Shown in pieces: positions 6,022-41,145 of a stretch of DNA of 41,145 nucleotides. This DNA comes from a virus: positions 1-41,145 of IMG/VR virus record IMGVR_UViG_3300042519_001014; one strand, given 5' to 3'. The translations under genes were made by a program, and so were the position numbers. How positions within the stretch are numbered: the stretch's first letter is position 1; every line of letters starts with the position of its first letter. A model generated the notes under the pieces. That model was not told where the DNA came from. It worked only from the letters and a program-made list of their open reading frames with translations, and made no database searches.

Positions 6022-6311
6022 TGAAGAAAAAATTCCAAGTCTACGATCACCCCACGCGGTACACGATGCCCTCGTCCAAGAAAGGTCAGGTACACCTGAT
6101 CGATCTGGCCGCCAACGATATGCTCGGCGAGTGTTCCTGCGAACACTTCCAGTGCGTTGTCCTTCCGCGCTGGCGTCAGGCCAGCGAACTGGAGCGCCAG
6201 TGGAAATGGGAGTACAGGTGCAAGCACCTGACGATCATCCGCGAAGAGATCGGCACGATCTTCATCGCCGCGCTCAACGCCACCACCGAAATTTCCCCCA
6301 ACACCAAATGA
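6021..6311 (+). CDS. SWIM-type zinc-finger-like protein
   Basis: The 96-residue product shows C38-x-C40 and C67-x-H69 (GECSCEHF and YRCKHL), the CxC..CxH spacing of SWIM zinc fingers, which bind DNA or proteins and in several organisms partner with recombination factors. The start overlaps the previous stop (TGATG), and the stop overlaps the start of the Rad52-like gene (ATGA). Being translated just ahead of the annealing protein suggests a mediator role, which is inferred. Confidence 0.65.
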   Translation: MKKKFQVYDHPTRYTMPSSKKGQVHLIDLAANDMLGECSCEHFQCVVLPRWRQASELERQWKWEYRCKHLTIIREEIGTIFIAALNATTEISPNTK

Positions 6312-7069
6312 GTAACCTAACACACCTCCGCGCTCCCTTCCCCGCCGACAGGGTCGAGTGGCGCATCCAGTCCTGCGGCACCAAGAACGATGGATCAGTC
6401 TGGGCGCGATGCCTTGCCTACATCGACAACCGCGCCGCGATGGAGCGGCTCGATGAAGTCTACGGCGAAGGCTGGAGCCACAAGGAAGAGTTCAAGCAGA
6501 TCGGATCCAGCGCGGTCTGCACTGTGACGCTGTCCTGCGGTGACCGCACTGTCTGCGGATCCTGCGAAGTCGAACTGAACAAGGGCGATGACATCGATCC
6601 GTTCAAGAGCGCCGCGTCTGGCGCGATGAAGAGGGCCGTGGTGAACCTAGGGATCGGCCGATATCTATACGAGTTGCCTGAGGCTTGGGCCGTGATCACC
6701 GACAGCGGCAAGTACCAAGGCAAGACGAAGGACGGCACTAAGTTCAAGTGGAACCCGCCCGATCTGGACGCGCCTGTCGCGCAGTACGCGGAGATCGCGG
6801 CGTCCCCTGCACCGCGCGCGCCCAGCGTACAGCCAGTCTCTGGCGGCGATTGGAAGAGCGTGATCATCCCTTTCGGGAAGCAACAGGGCAAGTCGCTTGG
6901 ATCGTTACCTGCGGCCAGTTTGAAGTGGTGGCAGGACAACTACCAGCCGAAGCCGTTCAAGGGCGCGATTAGCGCGAAGGACAAAGCCTTTCGTGATGCG
7001 CTCGATCAGTCTCTCGGCGTCACCTCCGCTCCCGCAACCGAAGCCCCTGATGACGATGTCCCGTTCTAA
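6308..7069 (+). CDS. Rad52/Rad22-like single-strand annealing protein
   Basis: This encodes 253 residues from ATG 6308. The N-terminal domain carries FPADRVEWRI, AYIDNRAAMERLDEVYGEGW and SAASGAMKRAVVNLGIGRYL, the hallmarks of phage Rad52-like annealases, which form rings that pair complementary single strands. A linker rich in Pro/Ala leads to IPFGKQQGKSL (187-197), a short fold found in other nuclease/recombination proteins, and an acidic tip DDDVPF (248-253) almost identical to the C-terminal peptide of bacterial SSB. It is the natural partner of the RecE-like nuclease at 3428-4228. Confidence 0.85.
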   Translation: MSNLTHLRAPFPADRVEWRIQSCGTKNDGSVWARCLAYIDNRAAMERLDEVYGEGWSHKEEFKQIGSSAVCTVTLSCGDRTVCGSCEVELNKGDDIDPFKSAASGAMKRAVVNLGIGRYLYELPEAWAVITDSGKYQGKTKDGTKFKWNPPDLDAPVAQYAEIAASPAPRAPSVQPVSGGDWKSVIIPFGKQQGKSLGSLPAASLKWWQDNYQPKPFKGAISAKDKAFRDALDQSLGVTSAPATEAPDDDVPF

Positions 7070-23412: not shown

Positions 23413-25368
23413 ATGCCCAACCTTCAGTACCAGACAGATCGTGATGGGGGCTTCGTTGGAATGGAGTCTCGCACGAATCCTACGCTACTGAAGGAACAGT
23501 TCCTCCAATACGCCCAGAACATCAGGCTTGAGCGCGGTGTCGCTCAGGCCCGAAATGGGATGAAGCGGATGAACAATGAGGATCTGGATGGCCTGTTTAT
23601 CAGGGGGTCGGCTAAGTTCGTCACAGTAAGCGGAGAAGAGAAGATCGCGGTAATCACTTCGGACTCACTCAGGACATTCAATCCGTCCACAAACAGTTTT
23701 GATCTGACGGCGCCATTCCCGACAGGCAGGGGGATCTCTGAAACCGACAGCCTAGCAGTCGTACAGGCCGTCAATAGGCTCTACATCTTCAGAGGGCTTC
23801 CCGCGCACGAAACTCCGTATTTCGCCAAGTACGACCTTCCAGACAACCACACTACCCTCGTCACTGTTACGACTTATGAGGATAGTGCTAGGACAACCCT
23901 GAAGGCTCACGGATACGCCACAGGGGACGAGGTGACCATCGCTGAATCGGCTGATACTGTTTTCAACGGCAATTACATCATCACTAGGGTAGACGATAAC
24001 ATCTTCACCTACGATCTTCCGTCCAACCACAACAGCCATACGGATAATGCTGTAACCCAGAAGGCGAAACCCGCGTTCATCTTTGATGGTACTGAGATCA
24101 CAGTGGCGCCTCAGACTGTACTAAGTGGAGTGTCCGCTTCTTTGCCTTCTTCTGACGCGGCGATCTACCAAGGCAATCGGATCATCTTAAAGCAGGGCAG
24201 GGATAAGTTGGCCGTATCCGACTACCTAGACTTTACAGCGTGGGATCTTACCTTCGGCCAGTTTACGATCAACTTAGGATCTTACGACCAACTGGTAGGG
24301 TTCACCCCTTGGCTTGAAAACGAGTTCATCATTTTTCAGCGCAACTCGATCTATAAGGGCAGGGTTATCAACTCTTCCTATGTCACTGGGGAGAACCCAG
24401 ACCAGCAGTCCTACCTGACATCCATCTCCAATTCCTTCGGTTGCGTAGGCAAGCGGGCCATCGTGAACACAGGCAGGTTTGTGTTTTTCCTGTCCGACTC
24501 TGGCATCTATATGCTGGAACCCCAGTTAGATCTGAAAACGATCAACACGCTGGAGCCGCTGTCGTCCCCGATCAACGACCAGTTTGCAGATGCCAACAGG
24601 CAGTTCATTGACAAGGCCCACGGAGTGTTCTTTGACAACCGCCTGTTTATGGCCGTGCCGTGCGGAAACGATGTGGACGGCAACCCGCACCCAAGACCTA
24701 ACAGGGTGTTTGTGTACAACATCCTGAACAAGGCTTGGGAGAGTATCGATACTTACCCTAAGCGCGCCGCAGGAGTGGCTGGATCCAGAGACTTTTATGT
24801 CGATGACTTTTGCATCGTAAACTACGGATCCAGAAAGCGACTGTTCTTGGTTAACAATGGTGGCGGCCTTCAGACAAACACGACATCTTCTTCAGGTGGC
24901 GTGTTTCTGACAGAGGAACACATCTACGGAGACGAGACTGACAATCTTGGAACCCCTGTTCTTCCGTTCTCTCTTATCGAGGATGACCCTTCGACAGCCC
25001 CGATTGAGTACGGCGCTTGGCTTGGTGAATCTGAAGTGAGAGTTACCCCCACTGATAGTCGTATGATCACTAGGCGTTTTACGCTTGGTAGCCTTTACGA
25101 AAAGCGATTTTCCGCAGTCAATACGGATATGTCCCTTCCATACGGAGGCACTATCTTAACAACAGTAAAGATCATCAACCCTGATCGGGAGATTCTGGTG
25201 GATCGTCACCAGACTCTACCTGAGCCAGATACATCCCGAAGGGTTCCTATCGCCCTTAGAGGGTACTCGGCTCAAGTGGAGTACCAGATGATTACTGGCC
25301 AGCCCTCCGTAAGGGGTGTTACTATTGACGCTACGCTCACTGGAAGAAACATAGTGAGCAAAGACTAA
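23413..25368 (+). CDS. Tail nozzle protein, gp12-like beta-propeller
   Basis: The 651-residue product begins with MPNLQYQTDRDGGFVGMESR, and its body shows repeated propeller-like blades (FVTVSGEEKIAVITSDSLRT, NRLYIFRGLP, GRFVFFLSDSGIYMLEP, NRVFVYNILNKAWESIDTYP) as in T7 gp12-type nozzles. An inserted domain near residues 147-210 (LKAHGYATGDEVTIAES, then NIFTYDLPS) is shared with the next gene. It should form the hexameric tube exit below the adaptor. Confidence 0.75.
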   Translation: MPNLQYQTDRDGGFVGMESRTNPTLLKEQFLQYAQNIRLERGVAQARNGMKRMNNEDLDGLFIRGSAKFVTVSGEEKIAVITSDSLRTFNPSTNSFDLTAPFPTGRGISETDSLAVVQAVNRLYIFRGLPAHETPYFAKYDLPDNHTTLVTVTTYEDSARTTLKAHGYATGDEVTIAESADTVFNGNYIITRVDDNIFTYDLPSNHNSHTDNAVTQKAKPAFIFDGTEITVAPQTVLSGVSASLPSSDAAIYQGNRIILKQGRDKLAVSDYLDFTAWDLTFGQFTINLGSYDQLVGFTPWLENEFIIFQRNSIYKGRVINSSYVTGENPDQQSYLTSISNSFGCVGKRAIVNTGRFVFFLSDSGIYMLEPQLDLKTINTLEPLSSPINDQFADANRQFIDKAHGVFFDNRLFMAVPCGNDVDGNPHPRPNRVFVYNILNKAWESIDTYPKRAAGVAGSRDFYVDDFCIVNYGSRKRLFLVNNGGGLQTNTTSSSGGVFLTEEHIYGDETDNLGTPVLPFSLIEDDPSTAPIEYGAWLGESEVRVTPTDSRMITRRFTLGSLYEKRFSAVNTDMSLPYGGTILTTVKIINPDREILVDRHQTLPEPDTSRRVPIALRGYSAQVEYQMITGQPSVRGVTIDATLTGRNIVSKD

Positions 25369-26881: not shown

Positions 26882-27318
26882 TCACGGCGAATCCAGTCGA
26901 TGGGATCATAGATCTCGTTAAGCGCAGGGTCACCGATCCTGAGTTCTGGGAGTCTTCGTTTTCTGACGATAACTACCTAAAGCAGTACATTGCATTCCAT
27001 ATGCTTGGGGGCAATGGAGGCTGGGTGACCAACGATGACGGCCTGATCACAGGCGCGATGATCGCGTACGAGTGCGATGAGGAATACGCAAGAAATCGGT
27101 TTATCTGGAAGCCTCCTGTTGGAAAAACCTGTATCTTTGTTGCACAAGTTGTCGCGGACGATGATGAATCGCGCGATAAACTTGCCCATATGTTCTTAGA
27201 TATGTTCCCTACGCGGAAGCCCTGCTACGGACTTCGCAAGGGCGCTTTTACCGCTATGAATGGCCACGATATCGCTATCAAACTGATCGGAAGGAGAACC
27301 TCCAATGGGCGGCGGTAA
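26878..27318 (+). CDS. Possible GNAT-like protein with non-ATG start
   Basis: The first ATG of this frame (27001) leaves 40 well-formed codons upstream (..NPVDGIIDLVKRRVTDPEFW), and the frame begins at CTG 26878, overlapping the previous stop as CTGA, the same 4-base overlap used by ATGA and GTGA elsewhere here. That gives 146 residues. The middle (GGWVTNDDGLITGAMIAYEC, KTCIFVAQVVADDDESRDKL) recalls the acetyltransferase-like fold of T7 gp13-type proteins located before internal virion proteins. The fold assignment is tentative. Confidence 0.6.
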   Translation: MITANPVDGIIDLVKRRVTDPEFWESSFSDDNYLKQYIAFHMLGGNGGWVTNDDGLITGAMIAYECDEEYARNRFIWKPPVGKTCIFVAQVVADDDESRDKLAHMFLDMFPTRKPCYGLRKGAFTAMNGHDIAIKLIGRRTSNGRR

Positions 27319-28405
27319 AGGCCCAGAAACCCCTCCTCCGAGGGACTACTACAAGGAGACATCTGACGCCCTCAAGGCTCAGGTGAATATGGCTCCGCAA
27401 CTGTATGCCGCCGAGGCCGCATTCAGACCCCAGTACCAGCGCCTTGAACTGGCTGGGTACAGAAACAGCCTTCTAGGCAGAGTTACGACTGACGATCTAA
27501 GCGCTACCAGTAAGGCTGAATATGACGCGGCCGTGGCTGAAGTCGCTGGCGCAGACGCCAAACTTGCCGATCTTCAGAAGCAACGCTCGGCTATCCAGCA
27601 AGGCATCAGGGTAGGCAGGAGAGGCATTGTCTACGACAAGGTAGGTCTTGAGCGCGTTGATGCCGAGATCGATAGGCTCAACATTCTAAAGAAGACCCCC
27701 ATTGATCCTGCGTCCTTCAGCGACAGGGGTCTTATCGATATCCTCGAAAAGGATGTAATGCCCTCTATGGCCCGCGCGGAGGCGCTTACCACCTCCCGCC
27801 AGAGAGCCAACGACATCCTCGATGTTGAGGCACTAGGCCAGCGGGCATCCCAAGCCTACCTTGACGCTGATCCTAGGTCTAAGAGCCTGATCGAGACCCT
27901 TAACGCTCAGGCTATGACCGATCTGAGCGCGAATGGCGCCCTGTCCCCTGAACAGCAGAGATACGCCCTCCAGACCCAAAGAATCGGTATGGCTGATCGC
28001 GGACTGGGTATGGGCAACCAAGGTCTTGCGGCCGATGTTCTTGGTACCTACCAACTGGTGGAGGCCCGCAAACAGGCCGCTAGGCAGAATGCTGGCGCCG
28101 TGCTTGGCCTGAACAAGCAGTTCACCGCAGATCCGTTCCAAGCGATCCTCGGCCGTCAGGGTCAGGCGTTCAACGCGGGTATGAACCAGCAACAGTTCGC
28201 CAGCGGCTTTGCCGCCAACATCGGCCCGCGCCTGTTCAACCCTGAGTCCCAGTACGCGGCTGACCTGAACAACTCAAACCAGCAGACCGCCGCCGCCTAC
28301 GCGGCCGCTCGCGCGCAGGTGCAGTCCGCTACCATCGGCGCCGTTGGATCCGCTATTGGCGGCATCGGTGGCGGCTGGGCGCAGGGTCTTGCTAGTAAGA
28401 AGTAA
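27305..28405 (+). CDS. Internal virion protein, gp14-like
   Basis: This encodes 366 residues from ATG 27305, overlapping the previous gene by 14 bases. It is Ala/Gln-rich and helical with coiled-coil stretches (AGADAKLADLQKQRSAIQQG) and ends in a Gly-rich hydrophobic segment (TIGAVGSAIGGIGGGWAQGL) that could insert into the outer membrane, as the first ejected protein of T7-like phages does. Position ahead of two much larger genes matches the gp14-gp15-gp16 order. No sequence identity with T7 is claimed. Confidence 0.65.
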   Translation: MGGGKGPETPPPRDYYKETSDALKAQVNMAPQLYAAEAAFRPQYQRLELAGYRNSLLGRVTTDDLSATSKAEYDAAVAEVAGADAKLADLQKQRSAIQQGIRVGRRGIVYDKVGLERVDAEIDRLNILKKTPIDPASFSDRGLIDILEKDVMPSMARAEALTTSRQRANDILDVEALGQRASQAYLDADPRSKSLIETLNAQAMTDLSANGALSPEQQRYALQTQRIGMADRGLGMGNQGLAADVLGTYQLVEARKQAARQNAGAVLGLNKQFTADPFQAILGRQGQAFNAGMNQQQFASGFAANIGPRLFNPESQYAADLNNSNQQTAAAYAAARAQVQSATIGAVGSAIGGIGGGWAQGLASKK

Positions 28406-28414
28406 CCAAAATTT

Positions 28415-30796
28415 ATGGCTGAAGGATCTCGACCAATCTCTAAGCAGTACGAAGGACAGCGCGTCAGCGCCATTCCTGACGGCTTCCTACAGGCTTACGC
28501 CCAAGTCGGTGCCAACATTATGGGTACTGGCAAGGCGCTTGGAGAAGGGATCGGCGGGGCCATTGCCGCGTATAAGCAGAACCAGCAACAGCACGAAATC
28601 GCTGACGGCACTGCCAAGGCTCAGTTCGCTAAGGTCGGGGACATCAACTCCTACCTTGATGGCCAGATCAAGGCTACCCCTGACGAGGTGAAGGGTAAGG
28701 CCACTGACCCTAACTCGACAGACCCTGCCGTGCTGGCTTACAGGGCTATCATTGAAGCCAAGGACGCGCTGGCCAAAGACATTTCTGGATGGACGGATAA
28801 AAGCCTTTCAGGAAAAACGGCCGCTCTGGGCCGTATTGCGATCCTCGACAAGTTCTCTGAAGACTGGAAGACAGAACAAGCAAAGAAGGCCGCTGGCGTT
28901 GTTGCCGCTACACAATGGGCCGCAGAACAGTCCGTCAGGGAGGCTAATGCCGCGCTTGCCGCAAAGAAGGAAAGAACTGCTACGATTGGGATTAGGGCTA
29001 CAGGAATTACTGCTGGCGCTAGATCGGAACTCCCAGTTGCTAAGATCGATGAAAAGGCTGGGGTCATTGGAGTTAACCCTGAGTTCATCACTGCTTTTTC
29101 TCAGGCCAAAGCCCAAGTTCAGGCTCAGATTGCCGCTACACCTGCTGGCGACGCCCAGACTCTTGCGGCGCTTAAGTCAACCAGCGCTGAACTAGACACA
29201 CGATTTGCTCAGGCTGTTGCCTCCACAAGTTCTGCTCAACAGGCGGCGATCCAAGAAACGACAGCGGCGGCCGCCAAGTTTTCAGACCCTACTGAAGCGG
29301 CCAGACGCCTTGCTGACATTGACGGACGGATTGAAGAACTTACCAAGGATCGCGGCGGCTACGAGATGCTTCCTAAGCCTGTTAAGGATGAGATTGCCAT
29401 CCTTCAGAAGGAAAGAAACGAACTTGGACTTGCTTACGAAAAGGCTCAGGCCGAATCCAAGAAGACTGGCAAGCCAGTTGCGCTTAATTATCAGCCTACC
29501 ACATTTATACAGAAGTACGCTAGAGATGTTAATGCGTACACGGCCGCCAGCACTTGGGAGGCCAATATGAAGGCTCAGGATCTTCCTGTAACTCCTGAGG
29601 CGAAACAGTGGGTTTACGAAATGGCCCTGTACGATGGTGAAGTGACTTCTGACGGATGGAAGATCAGCGTAGATAAGACCACTGGCGCCCTTACGCGAAC
29701 AAGGGATCCTGAGTTTGTTCGATGGCACGACTCCAAGGCTGGCGGCGTAAATCTTGTTGGTGAAGCCGCCGCCAACTTCAGAAAGTGGCAGTCCGACCAA
29801 GCGGCCAGAAACATCACTGCGAGCGTCCAAACATTTGGTATCAAGACAGTTGATGGTATGGCTCCTTCCAACGAACTGTTTGATATGGATAGCGGAAGGC
29901 ACTCCGTCTTCGTCAAGGGTCGAATGTTGCTGGACGACACTGAGGCTTTGAAGGTTAAAAAGGCTATCCAAGTAGATCAAGAGTTGATGTATTCGCTTGG
30001 TCAGATCGCAAACCTGACAAAGCAAAGAACGGCTGACGGAACTGGAATAGTGTACGAACAGTTTACCCGACCAGCGACTGAAGAAGAAAAGAAAGCAAAC
30101 CCATCCCTGACCACAGTCACCGAGGACAGGATCGTTGATGGCTACAGGGTTCCTGTGCGCCGTAAGATCTCGGAGATGTCTTCTGCCGAGAAACAGCAAT
30201 TTGCGACTGCCGTTGCTACATTCATTAGAATCAAGGCCAAGGGTCTCGGCGTCCTGTCTAAGACTGACTGGGATTACCTAAGAACCCTAGCGCCTGATAT
30301 CGGTTCCCAGTTCCTTGAAAACGCGAACATCAAGGAGGACAACGCCATCAAGATCGTGGCGCAAAACCTAGTTTCCCGCGCTACTGTTGTTTCTGGTGAC
30401 TTTGCTTCTCGCGCCGAACAGCAAATGAAGGATGTGTCGAACACTATGCGGCTGACTCTTTCGTCCATTCCAGCCAGCGGCACAGCAAGCGGCAAACTTG
30501 AGGTTTCCTCTGGCGCCGCCACGCGGGTCGATGGAGGCCGATACTACGGCTCTGATCTGTCGAACTGGTGGGATACTGTCACATCCGCGAAGACGGACGG
30601 ACGGACATTCAACAACGACTGGTACGATCTCAGGGCTGATATCTCTGTCGCGTACATCAATCGCAATAGGGAGAACGGCCCTTCTAGTGGCCCTGAATAC
30701 TACAGAACGAAGTTGTCTGAGTTGAGAGCCGTCCTGAACCACTCTGGACTTGATCCTCAGCAGATTGAACAAATTGTAAGGAAATACCAAAACTAA
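28415..30796 (+). CDS. Internal virion protein, gp15-like
   Basis: The 793-residue product begins MAEGSRPISKQYEGQRVS. It is mostly helical and rich in Ala, Gln and Lys (ANIMGTGKALGEGIGGAIAA, EDWKTEQAKKAAGVVAATQW). Length and helical content match ejection proteins that build the periplasmic tunnel in T7-like phages (gp15 has about 750 residues). The gene uses AGA and ACA codons often. Its stop overlaps the ATG of the giant gene (TAATG), so the two are translationally coupled. Confidence 0.65.
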   Translation: MAEGSRPISKQYEGQRVSAIPDGFLQAYAQVGANIMGTGKALGEGIGGAIAAYKQNQQQHEIADGTAKAQFAKVGDINSYLDGQIKATPDEVKGKATDPNSTDPAVLAYRAIIEAKDALAKDISGWTDKSLSGKTAALGRIAILDKFSEDWKTEQAKKAAGVVAATQWAAEQSVREANAALAAKKERTATIGIRATGITAGARSELPVAKIDEKAGVIGVNPEFITAFSQAKAQVQAQIAATPAGDAQTLAALKSTSAELDTRFAQAVASTSSAQQAAIQETTAAAAKFSDPTEAARRLADIDGRIEELTKDRGGYEMLPKPVKDEIAILQKERNELGLAYEKAQAESKKTGKPVALNYQPTTFIQKYARDVNAYTAASTWEANMKAQDLPVTPEAKQWVYEMALYDGEVTSDGWKISVDKTTGALTRTRDPEFVRWHDSKAGGVNLVGEAAANFRKWQSDQAARNITASVQTFGIKTVDGMAPSNELFDMDSGRHSVFVKGRMLLDDTEALKVKKAIQVDQELMYSLGQIANLTKQRTADGTGIVYEQFTRPATEEEKKANPSLTTVTEDRIVDGYRVPVRRKISEMSSAEKQQFATAVATFIRIKAKGLGVLSKTDWDYLRTLAPDIGSQFLENANIKEDNAIKIVAQNLVSRATVVSGDFASRAEQQMKDVSNTMRLTLSSIPASGTASGKLEVSSGAATRVDGGRYYGSDLSNWWDTVTSAKTDGRTFNNDWYDLRADISVAYINRNRENGPSSGPEYYRTKLSELRAVLNHSGLDPQQIEQIVRKYQN

Positions 30797-33700
30797 TGGC
30801 TGATCTAACTTTCAGGGGTAGTGGTGAGGCTAATCTTAACTTCAAGGCCGCTACGCCTGAAGAGGAAGCCAAGAAGGCCGCTGAAGCATCTCCAGTAGAT
30901 CCTAAGGCTCCACTGGCACCGCCTACCCTTAGCAAGGAAGAGATCGAGAAGAACGAGGCCGAAGCCCGCAGATACCTTCTTACTGGTGGAGCCAGACCTG
31001 AAGAAGGCCAGTTGACCCCTGACGATGCCGCAGTCAAGCGAGTCGTTGACGAGCATTATGACCGCGTTTTGGCAGAGTCTAAAGAGCGCTTAGAGAAGCG
31101 CGCACCTGTCGTTGGCTACGCCGACTTGAGTCCTAGAGAAAAGGATATGGTAGCCGCGCGTAACTGGGAAGCGATCTCCAAGGATAGAACAACTTGGCGA
31201 TCCCTGACAGATGACGACAAGTACGAGATGATGCGATTTGGCCTCAAGAACCATAAAGAGGTTGAACGGATCAGAGACACATACGAACAGAACACGGCGT
31301 GGTATGAAGATCTTTACCACGGCGGCTGGGGGTACATTAAGTCTAAAAAAATCTACAGAGGCTTCTCTATCGGTCAGGTTCTTGGCGCTTACGAAGGAGG
31401 CGCGTCTCCTGCTGATTTGAGAAAAGCACAAAACGCTAAACAGCAGGTCGCGGATACAAAACTTTTTCTTGATACACTAAAAGAGTTTAGAGCCAATCCG
31501 AAGGCTTACAGAAAGGAAGTCGTAGATTCTCTGTTGGCTAAGGTAAAAGAAAAGCCAGAACTACTTACTAAATCTGGGATGAGAACAGATCCTGAGTTTC
31601 AGGCTACCCTGTCTTCCCTTAATAGAGTCGAAATGGCTGACTTTATGATGGCCCTCAAGGAAGAGGTTCCTTCGGTAGCCAAGAGAATAGGAAATGCAAA
31701 GGGAGAAACATTTTACGAAGGCCGTAAGGCTTTTAGCGCCAATCAACAGCCGCTTAGAATTACAGACTTTGATTTAGATATTCTGGATCAAAAAGAACCA
31801 GATGGAGACATTGCTTTTACGATTAATCCATTGGCTGGCACTGGTACACCCAAGGCATTGTCCAAAGAAGAAATAGCCCGATGGGATGCGCTCAGTAAAC
31901 AATCCCTCTTGAAGGGAAAAATTGAACCTTATCGCTGGGTTAGTATGGCTTGGGGTAGAGGAATGTTCGATCACGCGGACAGTGATACGGACGATGCCAT
32001 CAAAGATTTTGGATCTAAAGCCGTTAACTTTACTCCTATTGGCGTTGCTGATGCCGCCGTGTCTGGCGCGGAGGTTCTTGGAAGGCAGGTCTTTGGCCCC
32101 GCGCTAGATCCTACAAGCACTTGGGGACATTTAAAGAGCGGCAAGATCGGCGATTGGTGGAGAATGATCAATGGAGACCCTAGCCTCGCTGATCCTAGGA
32201 CTTTGGTAGCCAATTTTGACGCCGCGATGAGCAATCAGGATGAGATTGAAAAGGCAAGCAGTGGCCAGAAATCTCACCTCATTGCTCGCGCTGGTGCTAT
32301 GGTATCTCGGTATACCACCGAGGAGATGCAAGCATCTATGTACAAGTATGGTGCTATGAACGCCCAACTTGTTAATGTTGGTATGATGCGGATCAACCCA
32401 GCCGCTATTGTCGGAAGGGCTTCCGCGATCACTCGCGCTGGCCAGATCGAAGGTATGGGAGTATTTGGTGGACTTGGAAGAGCCGCTGAATGGAGCGCAA
32501 AGAACGGAATCGTAAAGATCGCCACAAAAGATGCTTTTAATGCAAGGCTTGCAGTATACGGAGGCTACCTGCAATCGCTTGAAGGTGCTACGCTTGGTGC
32601 GGCAACTAGAGTTACTGGTTGGGTCGTTGGAAAGGGCGGCCGCGTGATCGTTGGAGCCTTTGGTATTGCTGGAGAACAGGTGGCAAAACTTGCCGAGGTT
32701 GTTGCCTCAAAGGCTGGGATGACTTACAACCCTGCCGCGTTCAAGTACACTATGCGGACGCTGGGCATCACTGATGCTTTCTTTGGTCACGGAATTTCGA
32801 CTAAGTTTGCCGCTCTTTGGGGATTTGGTAAGGCGGCTGGCGAGATCGGAACTACACTTCAAAGGTACGGATACAGAGGAGCCGCCCGCACTGGAACTGG
32901 TATGGTGAGTACATTTGAGGCTATGGCCGCCGACACATCGCTTACGAGCGCTACTCGTATGATGTCCAAGGTGGCGGCTAACATTATGGGGCCGTTTTCC
33001 GCTCCGTTTTATGATTTCGTTAAGGGTACTTGGCACGGCGCTGGAGTTGGCTACGGCCTTGGATTTGTCCAAGACGGACACAGGGGCGGCGTCCGCGGCA
33101 TCTGGGGCGGTGTAGGCATTGGCGGCGCGTCCGCTGGTCTGGCGTCTTTTTCTCAGTACAGAGCGGGTATCTGGACTCATACAGGTGCTACTGCTGATGC
33201 CAGAAAGATGGCCAAGGGTACTGTAAACGAAAAGATCGTTGAGGATCTAATTAAAGGCGCTGAATTTGACAGGGACTGGAACCGAATCCCGCAACTTGTG
33301 GGAGCCGTGAAGGCGGCCAGCGGTATCAACACCAAGGTGATCTTTCACAGGGACGGCGATACGGCCCACATCAACGGCAATGTCCTGAGACTGGACGCTG
33401 TCCTTGATTCTGACTTCAACATTGGCGGCCGCCAGTATCGTGTCAGGGAACTCAAGGCTGAGGTTGAGCGCCTAAATCAACAGGCTCAAACCGAAGCAAT
33501 GAGCGATGCCACAAGAGATCTTGCGGCTGAGACCAGAAGAATTGCTGGCGAAAAGAACGCCGAATTGTCCATTGAGATTAACAAGTGGCTAGATGACATC
33601 AAACTAAACGGCACTAGAGATCAGAGATCCAGAATTAACACGCGCCAGAACGCCTACAACGGCGTCTTTATGGAAGGCGGCGCTGGAAACGGAATCATCT

Positions 33701-36700
33701 ATATCAACGCGGACAGATCTGGTCTGCTCGGTAGCAGTGGTATGGCTTCGAACACTGTCGGCGGCCACGAAGTGTTCCACGCTATCCACAAACTGATCGC
33801 GCGCGAAAAGGCTATTTCCTACTTCAACAATTCGCTGTTCGGCATCAGCGATGAGAACGGACTGCTTACTGTACAGAAGGGTGCAATGAACTCCCAGATG
33901 CTTAAGTCATTCGGTGAACTGTACATTGAGACACTACACGCGGACGATCCCGCTGGAGGTAAACAGGCAAAGGCAGACCTAGATGACGCTTGGAGCGTAC
34001 TCAACGATCAGACGGCTACACCCCAGCGGGTCAAGAAAGCCAAAGAACTTCTTAACCTATACGCCGAAGAGTTTGGCGCGTTTTACTTTGAATCGTACCT
34101 CCAGCGCAACAGATCCGACTTCCTGTTCAGGGGAGGAAACGGAAACGGACTCAGAAGGCTGACAAACCAACTGGAAAACTTCATCGACTTCCAGATCCAG
34201 AAAGATCTGAACGGACAAGGCATCGAACTTCGAATCAGGGATGTTCAAGCGCTCAGATCGTCTAACGAAGCAAAAGATCTTATCAACAGGCTGTCCAAGG
34301 TAAGCGCTGACTTTGGGCGAGTGATGGAACAAATGGAGCGTATTGTCGTTAGGAACCCTGACGGCACAGTCGCTAAGTATAAGAACCCCCAACTGTTTGA
34401 GGCTTTGGCAAAGAAGGCAGAGCGCCTCCGCGCGGACAAGATTGCTTTGGACAAGGCCATTAGCAAGCAGGGCATCGGCGAAATCTTCAGAACCAAGGAC
34501 GGCAAGTTCCTGATCAACCCTGCGGCCGAGCGCGCGATGGATGATCTGATGAAGCGAATCGCAAACAAGGGCGCAAGCAACGCTATGGATCTTTCTACGA
34601 TCCCGCCAGACGAACTGGCCTCTGTGCTTCAAAGGGCTGGCCTTGAGCATTGGGCTGACGCCAACGGAAAACTTAAGGCTCCTGAGGTTGTCGAAAGAGA
34701 GACTGCTGAACGAGGTCAAAAAATGCTTAACCTGCTTGAGGGTCAAGGCCCGCAGGTTACTGGCATTGTCGTAACTCAGGACAAGCACGGCAACAAGCGC
34801 GGCATTGGCATTCTTACGGACGCGGCCATCGTTGCGCTTAGGGATAGCGGCCTCCTGTTGCCCAAGGAGGTTATCAACCTTTCCGTGCTTAGGGATGTGA
34901 TCAATGGCGTTGGCGGCAACGGCCTTGGCGGTAGCCAGATCCAGTTCCTGTACAACGCGCTTACGCACGAATACTACGCGGACGATGGCTCTGTTGGAAA
35001 ACTTCGTAAGCCTAAGCATCAGGTGCTTCCGACTTTCAGGGAGATCGTTCCGTATAAGATGGAGTTTGTGATGACCTCAAAGGACAGGGACGGCAATGTC
35101 GTTACCCCTCACTTTGAGATTATGGTCACAGGCATTGACCTTGGCGTGATCCTCAGAAGAGGCGCGGCTGAGTTCAACAGCACCTATACCCTTCCCAGCG
35201 GCAAGACTGTCAATGTCTCAGATCTGTTTGGCGGCTCTATGGATGTGATGGTTCATCACCTCCGCAGATATACCGAGAACCTTTCTGACGGCGGCCTTCC
35301 CAGCGCCGAACTGTTTGGCGGCGGCGAGCAGGGGGAGGCGGTCAGGGACATTATGTTCAGGATTATGGGTGCCATCCCCAAGGGAGGCTTTGGCCCCAAC
35401 GGAGAAGCGCTCCTGTACAACAACCCGATCATCAGGCCGTTCCACGCTTGGGAGCGCGGCCCTGACTTTGCCTTCACGACATTCAGAATGGATCTGATGC
35501 AGGATCTGTCCGTGACCACTGGCAACTGGCGCCTGAACGAACCTAACTTTTACCCTAAGGCCGCTGGCAACTACCAGCCTCCTTCCTTTGGCGCTCCCAA
35601 GATCGTTGAGAAGGACGGCAAGAAGGTGACGATGATGACCGCGTCTTTCGCATTCGAAAAGATTGGCAAGAAAGACGGCATCTCAAAAGAGACATCGGTC
35701 AAGTACACCATCATCAATCAGGACAAGCGCTGGTTCGTGGCGGCCAATGACTTCGATAAGCCGTACTCGTTCTCCACGATTGAACAGGCAAAGGACTTCG
35801 TACATCTGGACTCCCAGAGGCGCAAACTGATCGGTAGCAACTTGCTTGGCGCTCACCTGATGGGTGGCGACAAGGGAATCGTTGTGGCCAACATCAACGG
35901 AAACTACCTCTTGGTAGATACGACCAAGAAGATGCGGATCGTTCCCAGCAGGGGATTTGTCACATCTTCCGAGGCTATCGTTGAGGCCACGAAGTTGCAC
36001 AACAAACTTCTGATTGATAACCTCCGCAGTCAGAAGCATCCGAGCCTTCGGTTGTTCGAACACTATATGTCCTATGTCGAAAGGATGCAGAGTGAGAATA
36101 GCGAACTGCTCCCTGCTAGACTCGATATGAACAGGGACGGAACGCCGAAGACAGAGGCTCTAAAGAATGCAGATGGAAAAGAAATCAAGTACACTGCTGA
36201 CGACAGAGAGGTTAAGAATGGTTACGCAAAGGTAGGGGATACGAAACGCACCCTTAAGTTCCAGAAGGTCAGTTACAGCCTTCTCGAAACCTTGGCTGGC
36301 GCTGATCACTACAGAATGGGAGATCCTGCCGTCAATGCCCACGCCGAAGAGGTTGCAGAACTGCTTGTACAGGAAGCCATTGATGCCGCCAAGGATCCCG
36401 CAAAGAAGAAGGGTCTAGGCTGGTACCGCAATATGGTTCGCGATGGCTACTCCATCTATGGATCCGTCTATGGTATGTTTGCCGAAGGTCAGGGCGCTAC
36501 CTCCGCGCGTACTCCTGTCAAAGAGAACTTCAAGCAAGCGGAAGAGGCTTTGGCGATGTTCTCGCAGGGCAAGTACAACGATGTCCTTTCGCAGATCCAC
36601 GAACAACTTCGCCTGATCCACGAAAAGGCTGGCCGCAAGGACGCTAACGGCGTCTCTGAGTTTGAGGCCGAAGCGGTTGATCTGCTCCGCGCCAAGGAGG

Positions 36701-39700
36701 CCGCCAACAGGGCAAACGAGATCAACAAGACCGATTACGAGTGGGATGACATCGTAAACTACAAGAATCTGGAAGGCGAAGACGCCATCCCAGAACAAGT
36801 AGTCATCGACTTTGTCGCGGCGATGAAAGAACTGGAGGCTACTCCGCGCAACAGGCTGACGCCCACCCAGTTGTCCGAAGGGATCAACGCCGCCAAGAGC
36901 AGGGTCTTTAGAGATAAGGCCAACCTGATGCTAAGGCAGAACGGCAAGAAGTATAACGCCAACACTGTCAAGGTAGGTCAGGTGATGTACAATCTATGGC
37001 ACGAACTTACCGAAGGCCCGAAGACTCCTAACTTTGCTGGCAACCTTGCTGGCACAACGCGCGCGGCCACTATCGATGTATGGGCGGCTAGAACGCTCCA
37101 CCGCCTGATCAATACCAAGATCAAGAACAGAAGCATCTGGCGTCTGAATGCCTCGATGGAAACAGGCGTTGATTACCTGTGGCATAACCACGGCACGGCC
37201 GAATTCCCCCAGTGGGAAGTTGGCGGCGACTTTGGCTTTGGTCAGTTGATCTTCGAAAAGGCGGCCGCTAGACTTCGTGATCGCGGAGGTGAGTTTGCCG
37301 AGATTATGCCTGACGATCTTCAGGCGCTCATCTGGTTCCACGAAAAGGGAGTCTGGGATAAGAACGGATGGACTAAGACCATCGGCGCTGAGATGTCTTC
37401 CTTTGAAGGCCCGATGTCTGAGTTCTCTGGCGCTCGCGATCCTGATCGGATCGATGACTACCAGAACATCCGCAGAATCGTTGCTGGGTTCGCTGGATCC
37501 TACGATGCAGTTGGAATCACCCAGATCAGAGGCGTACCCCTCAGCGGGTCTGGATCTGGTAGAAGATTCGCGTTCCCCAAGGAGAAGATCCAGCAGGTCA
37601 GCGGCTTTGTCGCCGATGCTCTAGGCAACGCCCTAAGAGGCTCTAACATTGGTCAGACCATTGGCGTTACCGCTGGCAGAGCAGAACACTCCCTGATGTT
37701 TGATGTCATCGCCCATAGGGGCAAGGCCACTGTTCTGGCCAACGCGCGCGGACTTGCTCTTACTAGGGTCAGCAACGAAGCCAGATTGCTTAGGCAGTAC
37801 TCCGAGCAGATGTCCGCGTCCGTGGATGTCAAAGTCCGCGATGAACTTCAGAAGAAGATCAACACGAAGACAAGAGACCTTAAGGCGGCCGAACTGGCCC
37901 TTGAGAACGCTGACTCCAACCTACAGCAGGAGATCCAGAATCCTACTGTAGCCAATCAACTTGGTCTGCTTGCCGACTACCTTGTCACACAGGCTAAGAA
38001 CTATTCGCAGAAGGATGTCTATGTTGCAGAACTTGTAGGCGAGAAGCATCCCAACGCCAGACCTGCTGGCGATGTTATGTTCGGTAGCGTTCTGTCTCAG
38101 GCTGACGCGATGCTGATTGCCAAGATGCTATCGGACAAGAGTCCGTTCATTGACGCTTTCACGCTGATCCCAGATCCGCGCAATCCGAATGCTGGCGAGA
38201 TCTCCAGACTCTCCAACGAGATGTCCAAACTGGATCCGAACAGCAAGGAAGCCAAAGCCATCCAGAAGAAGATCGATGGCCTTACAAAGTACATCGGCGT
38301 CCAAGCCATCAGCACTCCTGAGATCACGGCCCGCTACAGGGAGTTCAGCAAGATCCCTGAGATCCAGAGAGGTGAGCAGGATCTTTTGTCCGAGGGCGGC
38401 GCTCGCTGGTATATGGGCGAGTGGAGCCGATCCCTCAACGAACTAATCTCTAAAAACGCATCTATCAATGGAACCGAACTACGACTCAATGCCTTCCACA
38501 TCAGTGCCGAAACAGTCCCGCGTGGCGCCTTCGACACCTTCAACAGCGCCGAGATCGGAAGAGATGTCGGCCTTGCCGTCAGACTCCAGCGCTACAAGAA
38601 TGGCCTCGAAAGAGAGACAGCCCTCGCCGCAGAGAACCAGCGAACAGGAGACCTCTTCACAGGAGACACCACAGTCTTTGAGAATAATCGGACGACTTGG
38701 GCTGAAACCAGCACCGAGCGAGGAGTTGGAGGACGGCTCTCTGAGACTCTGGCAGATGATGCATCAAGACAGGGTCAGCCCAGTTCCAAGGGGAATGTCG
38801 TCCTAACGGCAGAGAAGGCCGACCAGTGGATCAAGGAGAAGTTGGCCAAGCCGATTATCACATCGGAAGGCGGCGTTGTCTGGGGTGACAAGAACTTCCA
38901 GATGACCCAGAAGAGGAACAAGGACGGCACCCTCAGCAACAACTACGAGATCATCGGCGCGTTTGACCGCAAGCCGATCAAGGTCACAGGCAAGAAGAAG
39001 GCTGAGGCGATGCTTCGCGGGCGCCTGACTGGAGAGGTCGCCGCCCAAGGCGGTGAGCGCATTATCGAGATCAACGGCGAGCAGTTCAAAGTTAACGAGG
39101 CTACTAATCCTATCTTCGCTCAAGACAGCCAGACTTTGGTAAACATCGGCGTCTACCCTGACACTTCCAATATCTTCAAGTATCGTCCTGACGACAGCCC
39201 TACTGTCGAATTCCACAAGTGGAACAGCAAGACAGTTGATGAAGCATTCCCCAAGGGCGGCTTTAAGGGAAGCGCTCCTATGCCTTATTCGCACAGAATG
39301 GCCAAGTACATTGCCAGACTTAATGCGCTTGTTAACAGGCTAACTACTCAAAGCGGGATGGTGTCTATTGACCTTAAGGTTGGATCTAGCGGAAGTGATA
39401 CCTCTGCCTCCTACACTGGGAACTGGGGAACCGCGCACAGCAGATCATTTGATGTGACTATTGTTGCCCAAGGCCCAGATCCGTATGCTGGATTCCCTTC
39501 TGGTGTTAGAAAGTACAATGTCGCTAGCACAGATGGTCACTTCAAAGCCGTTACAGTAACCGATCAAGCCGCGTATCAGGCTGATAGCAGTTATGTCCAA
39601 CAGCCTAATGACGCTCCTAACAGAACAGCGGAAGACTATGGTAAGATCAGCGGCACAAACGCAATGGAAGGAGCCACAAAGCCGACAGTAAAAGGTCTTA

Positions 39701-41145
39701 CTACATTCTTTGGAGACCCTTCGCTGGTGGCGAAGTATGAGGCTGACAAGGCACAGGCGATGTCTGTTTCCCCTGTCGGAGTTAACCCGACAAGATTCGG
39801 CGCTTATGCTGAATGGTCTTATTTCAGAATGTGGCTTGATGGACAAAGGAACAAACTTACAGCCGAGAAGGACGATCTAACTGACAAGAAACTAGCCGCT
39901 GGTGAAACACTATACAAACCAGACGGAACATATGTTGACGATGTTCAGGCTATCGTTGATCAGAGAACAAAAATCAACGAGATCAGAGACGATATGGGTT
40001 GGGGTAGCAATAACTTTGCCCATCTTGCTCAGGTTCTATCGATTGAGCCTACGCCTAAAAACATCTTTGAACTGGCCTATGAAATTCAGGGCGCTGGTGA
40101 TGCCGTAAACGGAGAGGCTGGGGCCAGATTCAAGGCGGCTGGATTGTTCTCTAAGGGATCGCAAGGTCTTAAGTCCTACATCGTCAATAAGAAGGGCGCC
40201 GTGTTTAAGAACAGACGCAACACATACGGAGAAGGCAACACAAGGTTCTCTATGCACGATATCGGGAACACTGTGACTTATGACACGCAAGAAGCCATTG
40301 ACATCAATGTCAACGAGCGCGTCAACGCCGACATCAAGACTTGGGTCGATCCTACCAGACTGTTCTCTCCGTCTAGCGTTTCGTTTAAGCGCGCGTTCAA
40401 CGACAGCGCACTCAAGGGTGACGGCGGCCTATACAGCGAATACGCGGAATACCACCTTCCAAAAGGAATTGGAATTCTGTTCAGAACGGACGGCGCTGTC
40501 GGAACTGGTCACGATGGAAACATCAGCGTCCAAGTTGTCTCCAAAGAAATTAATGGCGTCAACTTCGCGCAGGACTTCTCGTTTACAGTTCTTATCGGTT
40601 ACAAGCATCCTGCCGACTTTGAGGGAGCATACTATGAAAGACCTGATCTTCTACAGAAGACTGGCGAAGCGACCATCGATTATGTCGCTGGACTTGGCCG
40701 TCTTAACCCTGAACTGACAGTTGCCGTCTTTAGAGAAACCATTGCTAGACTTGCGGCTACTGGGATCAAGTCGGTCAGGTTTGGCGCCGCGTGGAACGAA
40801 ACAATCCAGCGCGCTGACGGATCTGAATACAGGATCCCGAATCTCGTAAGTGACTCGATTGAGTCCGCGATGGGCAAGGCTCCTGACAGACGCAAAAACG
40901 GCTGGGAGGGCGAAGGTGCAGATGCGGAATGGGACATTGATCCTAAGCGCAAATACAGCCCATCTTTTGTTCCGTTTGAGCGCCTGTTCGAACAGCGAGA
41001 TGTATCGGCTGGTGGAGAGTTCTGGAGCAAGCAAGCCGTCAGGGAACTGGCTGGAAGATACTCCGTGGACTTCGAAATGGTCAGGGACAACGAACTTAGG
41101 GAAGGTATGACCGATGCCCCTATGGGTGGCAACAAGCAGACTGGT
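30796..41145 (+). CDS. Giant ejection-type virion protein with HExxH metallopeptidase motif, 3' truncated
   Basis: The frame runs 3,450 codons from ATG 30796 to the window edge with no stop, so the protein is larger still. Residues 991-995 are HEVFH in the context VGGHEVFHAIHKL, and E1091/E1092 lie in YAEEFGAFYFESYL about 100 residues later: the pattern of a gluzincin-type zinc peptidase. Gly-rich hydrophobic stretches around residues 600-790 (VGYGLGFVQDG, WGGVGIGGASAGLASF) may contact membranes. No RNA polymerase or transglycosylase motifs were seen. Position fits the gp16-like protein ejected into the cell; it could also be a large polyvalent-type protein that protects incoming DNA. Confidence 0.8.
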   Translation, partial: MADLTFRGSGEANLNFKAATPEEEAKKAAEASPVDPKAPLAPPTLSKEEIEKNEAEARRYLLTGGARPEEGQLTPDDAAVKRVVDEHYDRVLAESKERLEKRAPVVGYADLSPREKDMVAARNWEAISKDRTTWRSLTDDDKYEMMRFGLKNHKEVERIRDTYEQNTAWYEDLYHGGWGYIKSKKIYRGFSIGQVLGAYEGGASPADLRKAQNAKQQVADTKLFLDTLKEFRANPKAYRKEVVDSLLAKVKEKPELLTKSGMRTDPEFQATLSSLNRVEMADFMMALKEEVPSVAKRIGNAKGETFYEGRKAFSANQQPLRITDFDLDILDQKEPDGDIAFTINPLAGTGTPKALSKEEIARWDALSKQSLLKGKIEPYRWVSMAWGRGMFDHADSDTDDAIKDFGSKAVNFTPIGVADAAVSGAEVLGRQVFGPALDPTSTWGHLKSGKIGDWWRMINGDPSLADPRTLVANFDAAMSNQDEIEKASSGQKSHLIARAGAMVSRYTTEEMQASMYKYGAMNAQLVNVGMMRINPAAIVGRASAITRAGQIEGMGVFGGLGRAAEWSAKNGIVKIATKDAFNARLAVYGGYLQSLEGATLGAATRVTGWVVGKGGRVIVGAFGIAGEQVAKLAEVVASKAGMTYNPAAFKYTMRTLGITDAFFGHGISTKFAALWGFGKAAGEIGTTLQRYGYRGAARTGTGMVSTFEAMAADTSLTSATRMMSKVAANIMGPFSAPFYDFVKGTWHGAGVGYGLGFVQDGHRGGVRGIWGGVGIGGASAGLASFSQYRAGIWTHTGATADARKMAKGTVNEKIVEDLIKGAEFDRDWNRIPQLVGAVKAASGINTKVIFHRDGDTAHINGNVLRLDAVLDSDFNIGGRQYRVRELKAEVERLNQQAQTEAMSDATRDLAAETRRIAGEKNAELSIEINKWLDDIKLNGTRDQRSRINTRQNAYNGVFMEGGAGNGIIYINADRSGLLGSSGMASNTVGGHEVFHAIHKLIAREKAISYFNNSLFGISDENGLLTVQKGAMNSQMLKSFGELYIETLHADDPAGGKQAKADLDDAWSVLNDQTATPQRVKKAKELLNLYAEEFGAFYFESYLQRNRSDFLFRGGNGNGLRRLTNQLENFIDFQIQKDLNGQGIELRIRDVQALRSSNEAKDLINRLSKVSADFGRVMEQMERIVVRNPDGTVAKYKNPQLFEALAKKAERLRADKIALDKAISKQGIGEIFRTKDGKFLINPAAERAMDDLMKRIANKGASNAMDLSTIPPDELASVLQRAGLEHWADANGKLKAPEVVERETAERGQKMLNLLEGQGPQVTGIVVTQDKHGNKRGIGILTDAAIVALRDSGLLLPKEVINLSVLRDVINGVGGNGLGGSQIQFLYNALTHEYYADDGSVGKLRKPKHQVLPTFREIVPYKMEFVMTSKDRDGNVVTPHFEIMVTGIDLGVILRRGAAEFNSTYTLPSGKTVNVSDLFGGSMDVMVHHLRRYTENLSDGGLPSAELFGGGEQGEAVRDIMFRIMGAIPKGGFGPNGEALLYNNPIIRPFHAWERGPDFAFTTFRMDLMQDLSVTTGNWRLNEPNFYPKAAGNYQPPSFGAPKIVEKDGKKVTMMTASFAFEKIGKKDGISKETSVKYTIINQDKRWFVAANDFDKPYSFSTIEQAKDFVHLDSQRRKLIGSNLLGAHLMGGDKGIVVANINGNYLLVDTTKKMRIVPSRGFVTSSEAIVEATKLHNKLLIDNLRSQKHPSLRLFEHYMSYVERMQSENSELLPARLDMNRDGTPKTEALKNADGKEIKYTADDREVKNGYAKVGDTKRTLKFQKVSYSLLETLAGADHYRMGDPAVNAHAEEVAELLVQEAIDAAKDPAKKKGLGWYRNMVRDGYSIYGSVYGMFAEGQGATSARTPVKENFKQAEEALAMFSQGKYNDVLSQIHEQLRLIHEKAGRKDANGVSEFEAEAVDLLRAKEAANRANEINKTDYEWDDIVNYKNLEGEDAIPEQVVIDFVAAMKELEATPRNRLTPTQLSEGINAAKSRVFRDKANLMLRQNGKKYNANTVKVGQVMYNLWHELTEGPKTPNFAGNLAGTTRAATIDVWAARTLHRLINTKIKNRSIWRLNASMETGVDYLWHNHGTAEFPQWEVGGDFGFGQLIFEKAAARLRDRGGEFAEIMPDDLQALIWFHEKGVWDKNGWTKTIGAEMSSFEGPMSEFSGARDPDRIDDYQNIRRIVAGFAGSYDAVGITQIRGVPLSGSGSGRRFAFPKEKIQQVSGFVADALGNALRGSNIGQTIGVTAGRAEHSLMFDVIAHRGKATVLANARGLALTRVSNEARLLRQYSEQMSASVDVKVRDELQKKINTKTRDLKAAELALENADSNLQQEIQNPTVANQLGLLADYLVTQAKNYSQKDVYVAELVGEKHPNARPAGDVMFGSVLSQADAMLIAKMLSDKSPFIDAFTLIPDPRNPNAGEISRLSNEMSKLDPNSKEAKAIQKKIDGLTKYIGVQAISTPEITARYREFSKIPEIQRGEQDLLSEGGARWYMGEWSRSLNELISKNASINGTELRLNAFHISAETVPRGAFDTFNSAEIGRDVGLAVRLQRYKNGLERETALAAENQRTGDLFTGDTTVFENNRTTWAETSTERGVGGRLSETLADDASRQGQPSSKGNVVLTAEKADQWIKEKLAKPIITSEGGVVWGDKNFQMTQKRNKDGTLSNNYEIIGAFDRKPIKVTGKKKAEAMLRGRLTGEVAAQGGERIIEINGEQFKVNEATNPIFAQDSQTLVNIGVYPDTSNIFKYRPDDSPTVEFHKWNSKTVDEAFPKGGFKGSAPMPYSHRMAKYIARLNALVNRLTTQSGMVSIDLKVGSSGSDTSASYTGNWGTAHSRSFDVTIVAQGPDPYAGFPSGVRKYNVASTDGHFKAVTVTDQAAYQADSSYVQQPNDAPNRTAEDYGKISGTNAMEGATKPTVKGLTTFFGDPSLVAKYEADKAQAMSVSPVGVNPTRFGAYAEWSYFRMWLDGQRNKLTAEKDDLTDKKLAAGETLYKPDGTYVDDVQAIVDQRTKINEIRDDMGWGSNNFAHLAQVLSIEPTPKNIFELAYEIQGAGDAVNGEAGARFKAAGLFSKGSQGLKSYIVNKKGAVFKNRRNTYGEGNTRFSMHDIGNTVTYDTQEAIDINVNERVNADIKTWVDPTRLFSPSSVSFKRAFNDSALKGDGGLYSEYAEYHLPKGIGILFRTDGAVGTGHDGNISVQVVSKEINGVNFAQDFSFTVLIGYKHPADFEGAYYERPDLLQKTGEATIDYVAGLGRLNPELTVAVFRETIARLAATGIKSVRFGAAWNETIQRADGSEYRIPNLVSDSIESAMGKAPDRRKNGWEGEGADAEWDIDPKRKYSPSFVPFERLFEQRDVSAGGEFWSKQAVRELAGRYSVDFEMVRDNELREGMTDAPMGGNKQTG

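Follow-up and report, generated by a model that had tools for sequence, protein, structure and literature searches.

A giant phage gene with a predicted zincin-like peptidase and a predicted DNA-glycosylase fold, probably encoding a new branch of the polyvalent proteins

The window analyzed here, all 41,145 nucleotides of the viral record IMGVR_UViG_3300042519_001014, carries genes for a large terminase subunit (TerL), an SU10-type capsid protein, and a tail-type protein, followed by a 366-aa gene, a 793-aa gene, and a giant gene that makes up about one third of the genome of this uncultured phage. The giant gene (30796..41145, + strand) starts with an ATG and encodes 3450 aa with no stop up to the contig edge; each of the remaining five frames across 30796-41145 contains 39 to 272 stops. 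The single open frame of more than 3,450 codons running to the edge, which had been noted in the original prediction from the sequence, is therefore real, but the length then given was too short. The gene is truncated because the record stops at 41145, the window's own end, and the 3' end is missing. In four relatives drawn from viral contigs, the whole gene is present as one ORF of 4879 (L002), 4883 (L003), 4621 (L011), or 4412 aa (L004); the closest full-length relatives thus reach ~4,900 aa, and the open frame in the window is only the 5' 3,450 codons of about 4,880. The gene is under purifying selection, with a dN/dS over the shared part of the ORF of 0.11 against L002 and 0.14 against L003, and of 0.07 to 0.14 in each segment tested against L002. 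With a dN/dS of ~0.11, the giant ORF is therefore a maintained protein and no chance open frame. Its residues 1-3000 have no relatives among isolated phages, and a sequence search against solved structures returned no direct homologue. Phage C75C1 (L005, L008), in which the capsid is similar and the tail genes are followed by a gene of 2,769 aa, was considered as a relative and rejected, as no shared module was visible by eye and no tblastn match was obtained. Elsewhere in the window, the 651-aa tail-type protein (23413-25368) shows weak kelch and endosialidase beta-barrel matches, a PDDEXK endonuclease gene (PF24579; 5359-6021) is followed by a gene for an Erf-like annealing protein (6131-7069), and two neighbouring tRNA genes, Arg(tct) and Thr(tgt), lie on the minus strand (715-864). 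After the giant gene, L002, L003, and L004 carry a 246-aa gene (25272-26012 in L002 and 25284-26024 in L003; 247 aa in L004) with no convincing family match, and a RusA-type resolvase gene also follows the giant gene in L003.

The giant gene closes a three-gene cassette of 366, 793, and ~4,900 aa. From gene order and size, the 366-aa gene (27305..28405, + strand), the smallest of the three, is a candidate for ejection protein 1, and the order likewise suggests that the 793-aa gene (28415..30796, + strand) encodes a candidate ejection (periplasmic tunnel-like) protein. A succession of small, medium, and large genes is also found for the ejection proteins gp14/gp15/gp16 of T7 (PMC12633501) and in the N4 order gp52/gp51/gp50, in which gp50 is likewise the largest member. 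Unlike these arrangements, the cassette shows no sequence match to the T7 families; no family match was found for the 366-aa gene, and the 793-aa gene has neither a family match nor relatives among isolated phages. The giant protein is also almost four times as long as gp16. It could be argued that it is a large intracellular late protein merely encoded beside virion genes, because neither the giant gene nor the two genes before it match a known ejection protein. We consider this very unlikely, because the same two genes lie directly upstream in all full relatives (a gene of 751-794 aa immediately before the giant gene in L002, L003, L004, and L011, and, at the position of the 366-aa gene, similar-sized genes in L003 and L004 and longer ones in L002 and L011), because the ATG of the giant gene overlaps the stop of the 793-aa gene (..CTAATGG..), and because its set of modules is common to polyvalent proteins, which have been placed in virions (PMC5512222). 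The original description of a giant late gene adjoining virion genes agrees with the terminase, capsid, and tail-type genes found upstream and, judging from gene order, the giant protein is probably packaged in the virion and ejected with the DNA. The best explanation, which we consider probable as a whole, takes the phage to be short-tailed with an SU10-type capsid protein.

A zincin-like metallopeptidase region is predicted at residues 837-1207 (33304..34416, + strand) from conservation and a profile match. It contains the zinc-binding motif HEVFH (residues 991-995; 33766..33780, + strand), which is the sole HExxH of the giant protein, and each close relative likewise has just one. One copy by itself is weak evidence (0.047 HExxH expected in the shuffled protein), and its retention in every close relative adds weight. 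Across 11 divergent giant phage proteins, down to ~20% identity, N971, D973, H991, E992, H995, Y1043, and E1092 are invariant, as are one Gly and one Ile in or near the strand preceding HExxH. The HExxH with a downstream Glu that is typical of a gluzincin-type MPTase is therefore present in all 11 sequences as H991, E992, H995, and E1092. The original prediction had built its gluzincin site from HEVFH plus E1091/E1092, of which HExxH and E1092 hold, but E1091 varies among the 11 proteins; the predicted third zinc ligand is thus settled as E1092 (34069..34071, + strand), within the motif EEFGAFYF, where N4 has NEFMAW. A profile of the region aligns over the strand and HExxH with that of the zincin in N4 virion RNA polymerase (vRNAP) (E 0.0015-0.0019; 0/60 column-permuted controls as good), and single family members match other zincin families weakly. 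The AlphaFold model of the region is of low confidence (pLDDT 63, below 50 around the motif); in it, HExxH and E1092 fall in two different helices, the arrangement expected for a zincin. No zincin appeared among its Foldseek or VIA-align matches, the lists being filled with long-helix matches, which we count neither way. Together, these data point to a credible embedded zinc site of the gluzincin type.

N4 vRNAP had been brought in as a contrast to the giant protein, an opposition that no longer stands given that an HExxH domain of this kind is also found in the C-terminal part of the N4 enzyme (PMC5512222, PMC12633501), with the E-F-x-A motif in common. The accompanying statement that polymerase motifs are absent was correct; unlike gp50 of N4 (Schitoviridae), the giant protein has no RNA polymerase domain and no overall similarity to gp50, as Pfam returned no RNA polymerase family for it and neither blastp nor profile comparison gave a meaningful match with the gp50 polymerase region. 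The two also differ in the position of the zincin, which is near the N-terminal third in the giant protein and C-terminal in N4, and the capsid type of this phage is not that of N4. An HExxH motif need not mean self-cleavage: in N4, whose vRNAP also has such a domain, encapsidation requires the HExxH region, yet the enzyme enters the capsid without being processed (PMC5512222). By analogy, the domain in this lineage might have a structural or regulatory part in packaging or folding and not be a working protease. This appears improbable to us, as the invariance of both His, both Glu, and a Tyr in 11 divergent proteins goes beyond what a scaffold would need.

The most conserved part of the giant protein, which had been overlooked in the original prediction, is a module at residues about 1818-2230 (36247..37485, + strand). 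Scanned alone, this segment matches PF23802 (DUF7178) with 31.6 bits against a cut-off of 27, and with the whole protein the score is 25.1, below the cut-off. All 45 aligned relatives match DUF7178 and share the invariant blocks WY, ATSA-T-V-N, PKTPNFAGNL-G, ATID-WA-R, and DDLQA-W-EK. To our knowledge, no function has been stated for this family, and our literature search found no paper naming DUF7178. No relatives of the module were found among isolated phages. The module motif recalls endonuclease III (GVGRKTAN...VDTH), and Lys2076 (37021-37023, + strand) and Asp2094 (37075-37077, + strand) are invariant in the 45 sequences with a spacing of 18, the same as that of K120/D138 in Nth. In the structural model (pLDDT 81), the Lys sits at a helix start and the following helix has the Asp as its N-cap, so that the module presents the helix-hairpin-helix followed by the catalytic Asp, with the Lys of bifunctional members, that defines the HhH-GPD superfamily. 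When 56 segments of the giant protein were compared with an Nth/MutY profile of 21 sequences, the module was the best (E 1.2e-4, next 0.011; 0/60 permuted controls as good); an earlier template of few sequences had given no match. VIA-align on Foldseek's top 1000 chains gave seven rows above Z 5, all of them DUF2419/QNG1, MagIII, or AGOG, with middling values of 5.9-7.2, the next and unrelated row scoring 3.6. Unlike the glycosylases of this superfamily, the module has a long insert, many family-specific invariant residues, and no match to PF00730; a PF00730 search of the L013 record also gave no match, nor did Nth alone against the DUF7178 profile, and Foldseek with the module model found no glycosylase. 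We therefore assign it an HhH-GPD DNA-glycosylase fold with moderate confidence, from sequence and model, and hold glycosylase activity to be less certain than the fold. A different function on this fold, as another enzyme (e.g. a nucleoside hydrolase like DUF2419/QNG1) or as a DNA-binding domain, is a serious though less favored candidate, as the DUF2419 rows, whose family we take to have a glycosylase-like fold, score as high as those of true glycosylases and many invariant residues lie outside the Lys/Asp pair. What speaks for a glycosylase is that both the Lys and the Asp of the bifunctional motif are invariant and keep the same spacing.

Other parts of the chain are less widely shared. 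Residues 500-830 (32293..33285, + strand) are Gly/Ala-rich (17% G, 15% A) and of low charge, a composition suggesting a possible membrane or channel segment; no classical transmembrane helix was found there by hydropathy. Downstream of the DUF7178 module, a short block at residues 2398-2498 (37987..38289, + strand) is common to distant giant phage proteins, where 14 matches fall beyond the closest relatives. No part of the protein other than the zincin, DUF7178, and this block has distant relatives in the set. Toward the C terminus, hhalign delineates repeat unit 0 (residues 3190-3386; 40363..40953, + strand), bounded by [FY]SPS linkers, and the start of unit 1 (40954..41145, + strand), which is cut by the record end; the C-terminal units match each other with E 1e-7 to 1e-8. 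In the full relatives, the C-terminal third comprises two to three related units and one further, unrelated [FY]SPS-bounded unit. The [FY]SP[SAK] linkers were considered as a family-wide cleavage signal and rejected; three lineages have them at domain borders (5, 3, and 3 against ~0.5 expected), but most others lack them.

A wider family extends beyond the close relatives. A search of viral contigs with the DNA pattern for the peptide KTPNFAGN, taken from the best conserved stretch of the protein, gave 51 stretches, almost all of which lie within large ORFs. A part of at least 1,000 residues precedes the DUF7178 module in 27 distant giant ORFs; 18 of these have an HExxH there, against 0.57 expected, and it was not seen in the other 9, some of which are cut at the 5' end. 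Distant relatives additionally carry an ART-PolyVal domain (L062, L063) or an acetyltransferase (GNAT) domain (L013). In whole genomes, matches to the KTPNFAGN pattern were discarded as mostly chance, with only L087 clearly a giant gene. The latter is a giant ORF with HEIGH and a DUF7178 module; its 40-kb contig was binned with a Verrucomicrobiales genome, which may hint at a host of the wider family. These architectures recall the polyvalent proteins, a class described in 2017 by Iyer et al., whose most frequent domain is the zincin peptidase (PMC5512222). An embedded zincin in a giant phage protein, originally presented as a rarity, is thus the commonest feature of a known class. Our protein is likewise a giant late-gene product with one predicted zincin combining HExxH and a downstream Glu, it is large and multi-domain (more than 2,000 aa being common in the class), with at least the zincin, the DUF7178 module, and the C-terminal repeats, and its gene lies downstream of TerL, SU10-type capsid, and tail-type genes. 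Of the catalogued polyvalent domains, the zincin is recognized by motif and profile, whereas no Pfam polyvalent model (LPD, MPTase, or ART) matches the protein itself and ART-PolyVal is matched by the distant L062 and L063. Of the matches from the viral fold library, the top ones are large phage proteins, most of them uncharacterised, and ART-PolyVal and LPD proteins rank below them. Also unlike the published examples, the protein is very long (~4,900 aa) and carries a DUF7178/HhH-GPD-like module that is not named in the main text of that work, where the word glycosylase does not occur. We regard it as probable, from these sequence features, that the giant protein is a phage-type polyvalent protein forming a new branch of this known class of injected phage proteins.

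The purge of restriction sites noted in the original prediction is real, extreme, and common across the lineage. ACGT, AGCT, CATG, and CCGG do not occur in the window, against ~480 expected together (roughly 90-160 each), and the same four sites are absent from the examined sequence of L002, L003, L004, and L011, down to 39% protein identity. Additional losses are found for GCGC in L004, AGCT and CATG in L059, and GATC in L013. The phage would thus seem to escape these enzymes through loss of their sites. Because every ACGT, AGCT, CATG, and CCGG site is lost, the phage is not being shielded from those enzymes by an injected protein. The purge had been read as a pointer to an anti-defence role, but it points the other way, speaking against an effective protein-based anti-restriction defence, and weakens an anti-restriction role of the giant protein. 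Of the roles proposed for the embedded protease, processing of the ejection complex stands as one option, whereas the anti-restriction role is weakened. More broadly, the peptidase might act after ejection as an effector cleaving host proteins (defence proteins, RNA polymerase, or others) and not the phage's own chain, a possibility named for some polyvalent zincins by Iyer et al. (PMC5512222) and consistent with the presence of other likely effector modules on the same chain and with strong constraint on the active-site residues. On the other hand, an early position between the putative membrane part and the effectors suits self-release, and loss of sites already takes care of at least the restriction systems; we therefore find a host target unlikely, if clearly worth keeping in view. 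Cleavage of the phage's own chain is favored because self-processing has been proposed for such peptidases (PMC5512222).

The explanation that we consider probable is that of a polyvalent ejection protein with an N-terminal channel part, a zincin cutting its own chain or partners, and a glycosylase-fold module downstream. A short-tailed phage would carry the giant protein inside its capsid and eject it along with the DNA, and the first ~830 residues of the protein, including the Gly/Ala-rich stretch, would join the inner-membrane end of a trans-envelope ejection channel, as does the N4 gp50 N-terminal domain. The zincin (H991, E992, H995, E1092) would most likely act while ejection is under way or once it is complete, cutting its own giant chain or partners of it, and this cleavage would free or mature the downstream effector modules from the membrane-held part. 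The module at residues 1818-2230, with the Lys/Asp pair of bifunctional glycosylases, would probably act on host or incoming DNA, or on nucleosides, early in infection. Only tentatively do we go further and propose an undescribed large branch in which a self-releasing zincin and a DNA-glycosylase-fold enzyme (DUF7178) are joined and a base-excising enzyme is delivered into the host with the DNA, e.g. for host DNA damage or for the removal of modified bases before phage gene expression. From the point of view of the family, these analyses assign a phage gene of very large size that had not been studied to an established functional class, bear on whether polyvalent zincins cut their own chain, and provide DUF7178, which is common to dozens of giant proteins of uncultured phages, with a predicted fold and candidate catalytic residues. 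If the glycosylase reading is true, infection by these phages would begin with the injection of a DNA-modifying, repair-type enzyme, an early weapon of a new kind.
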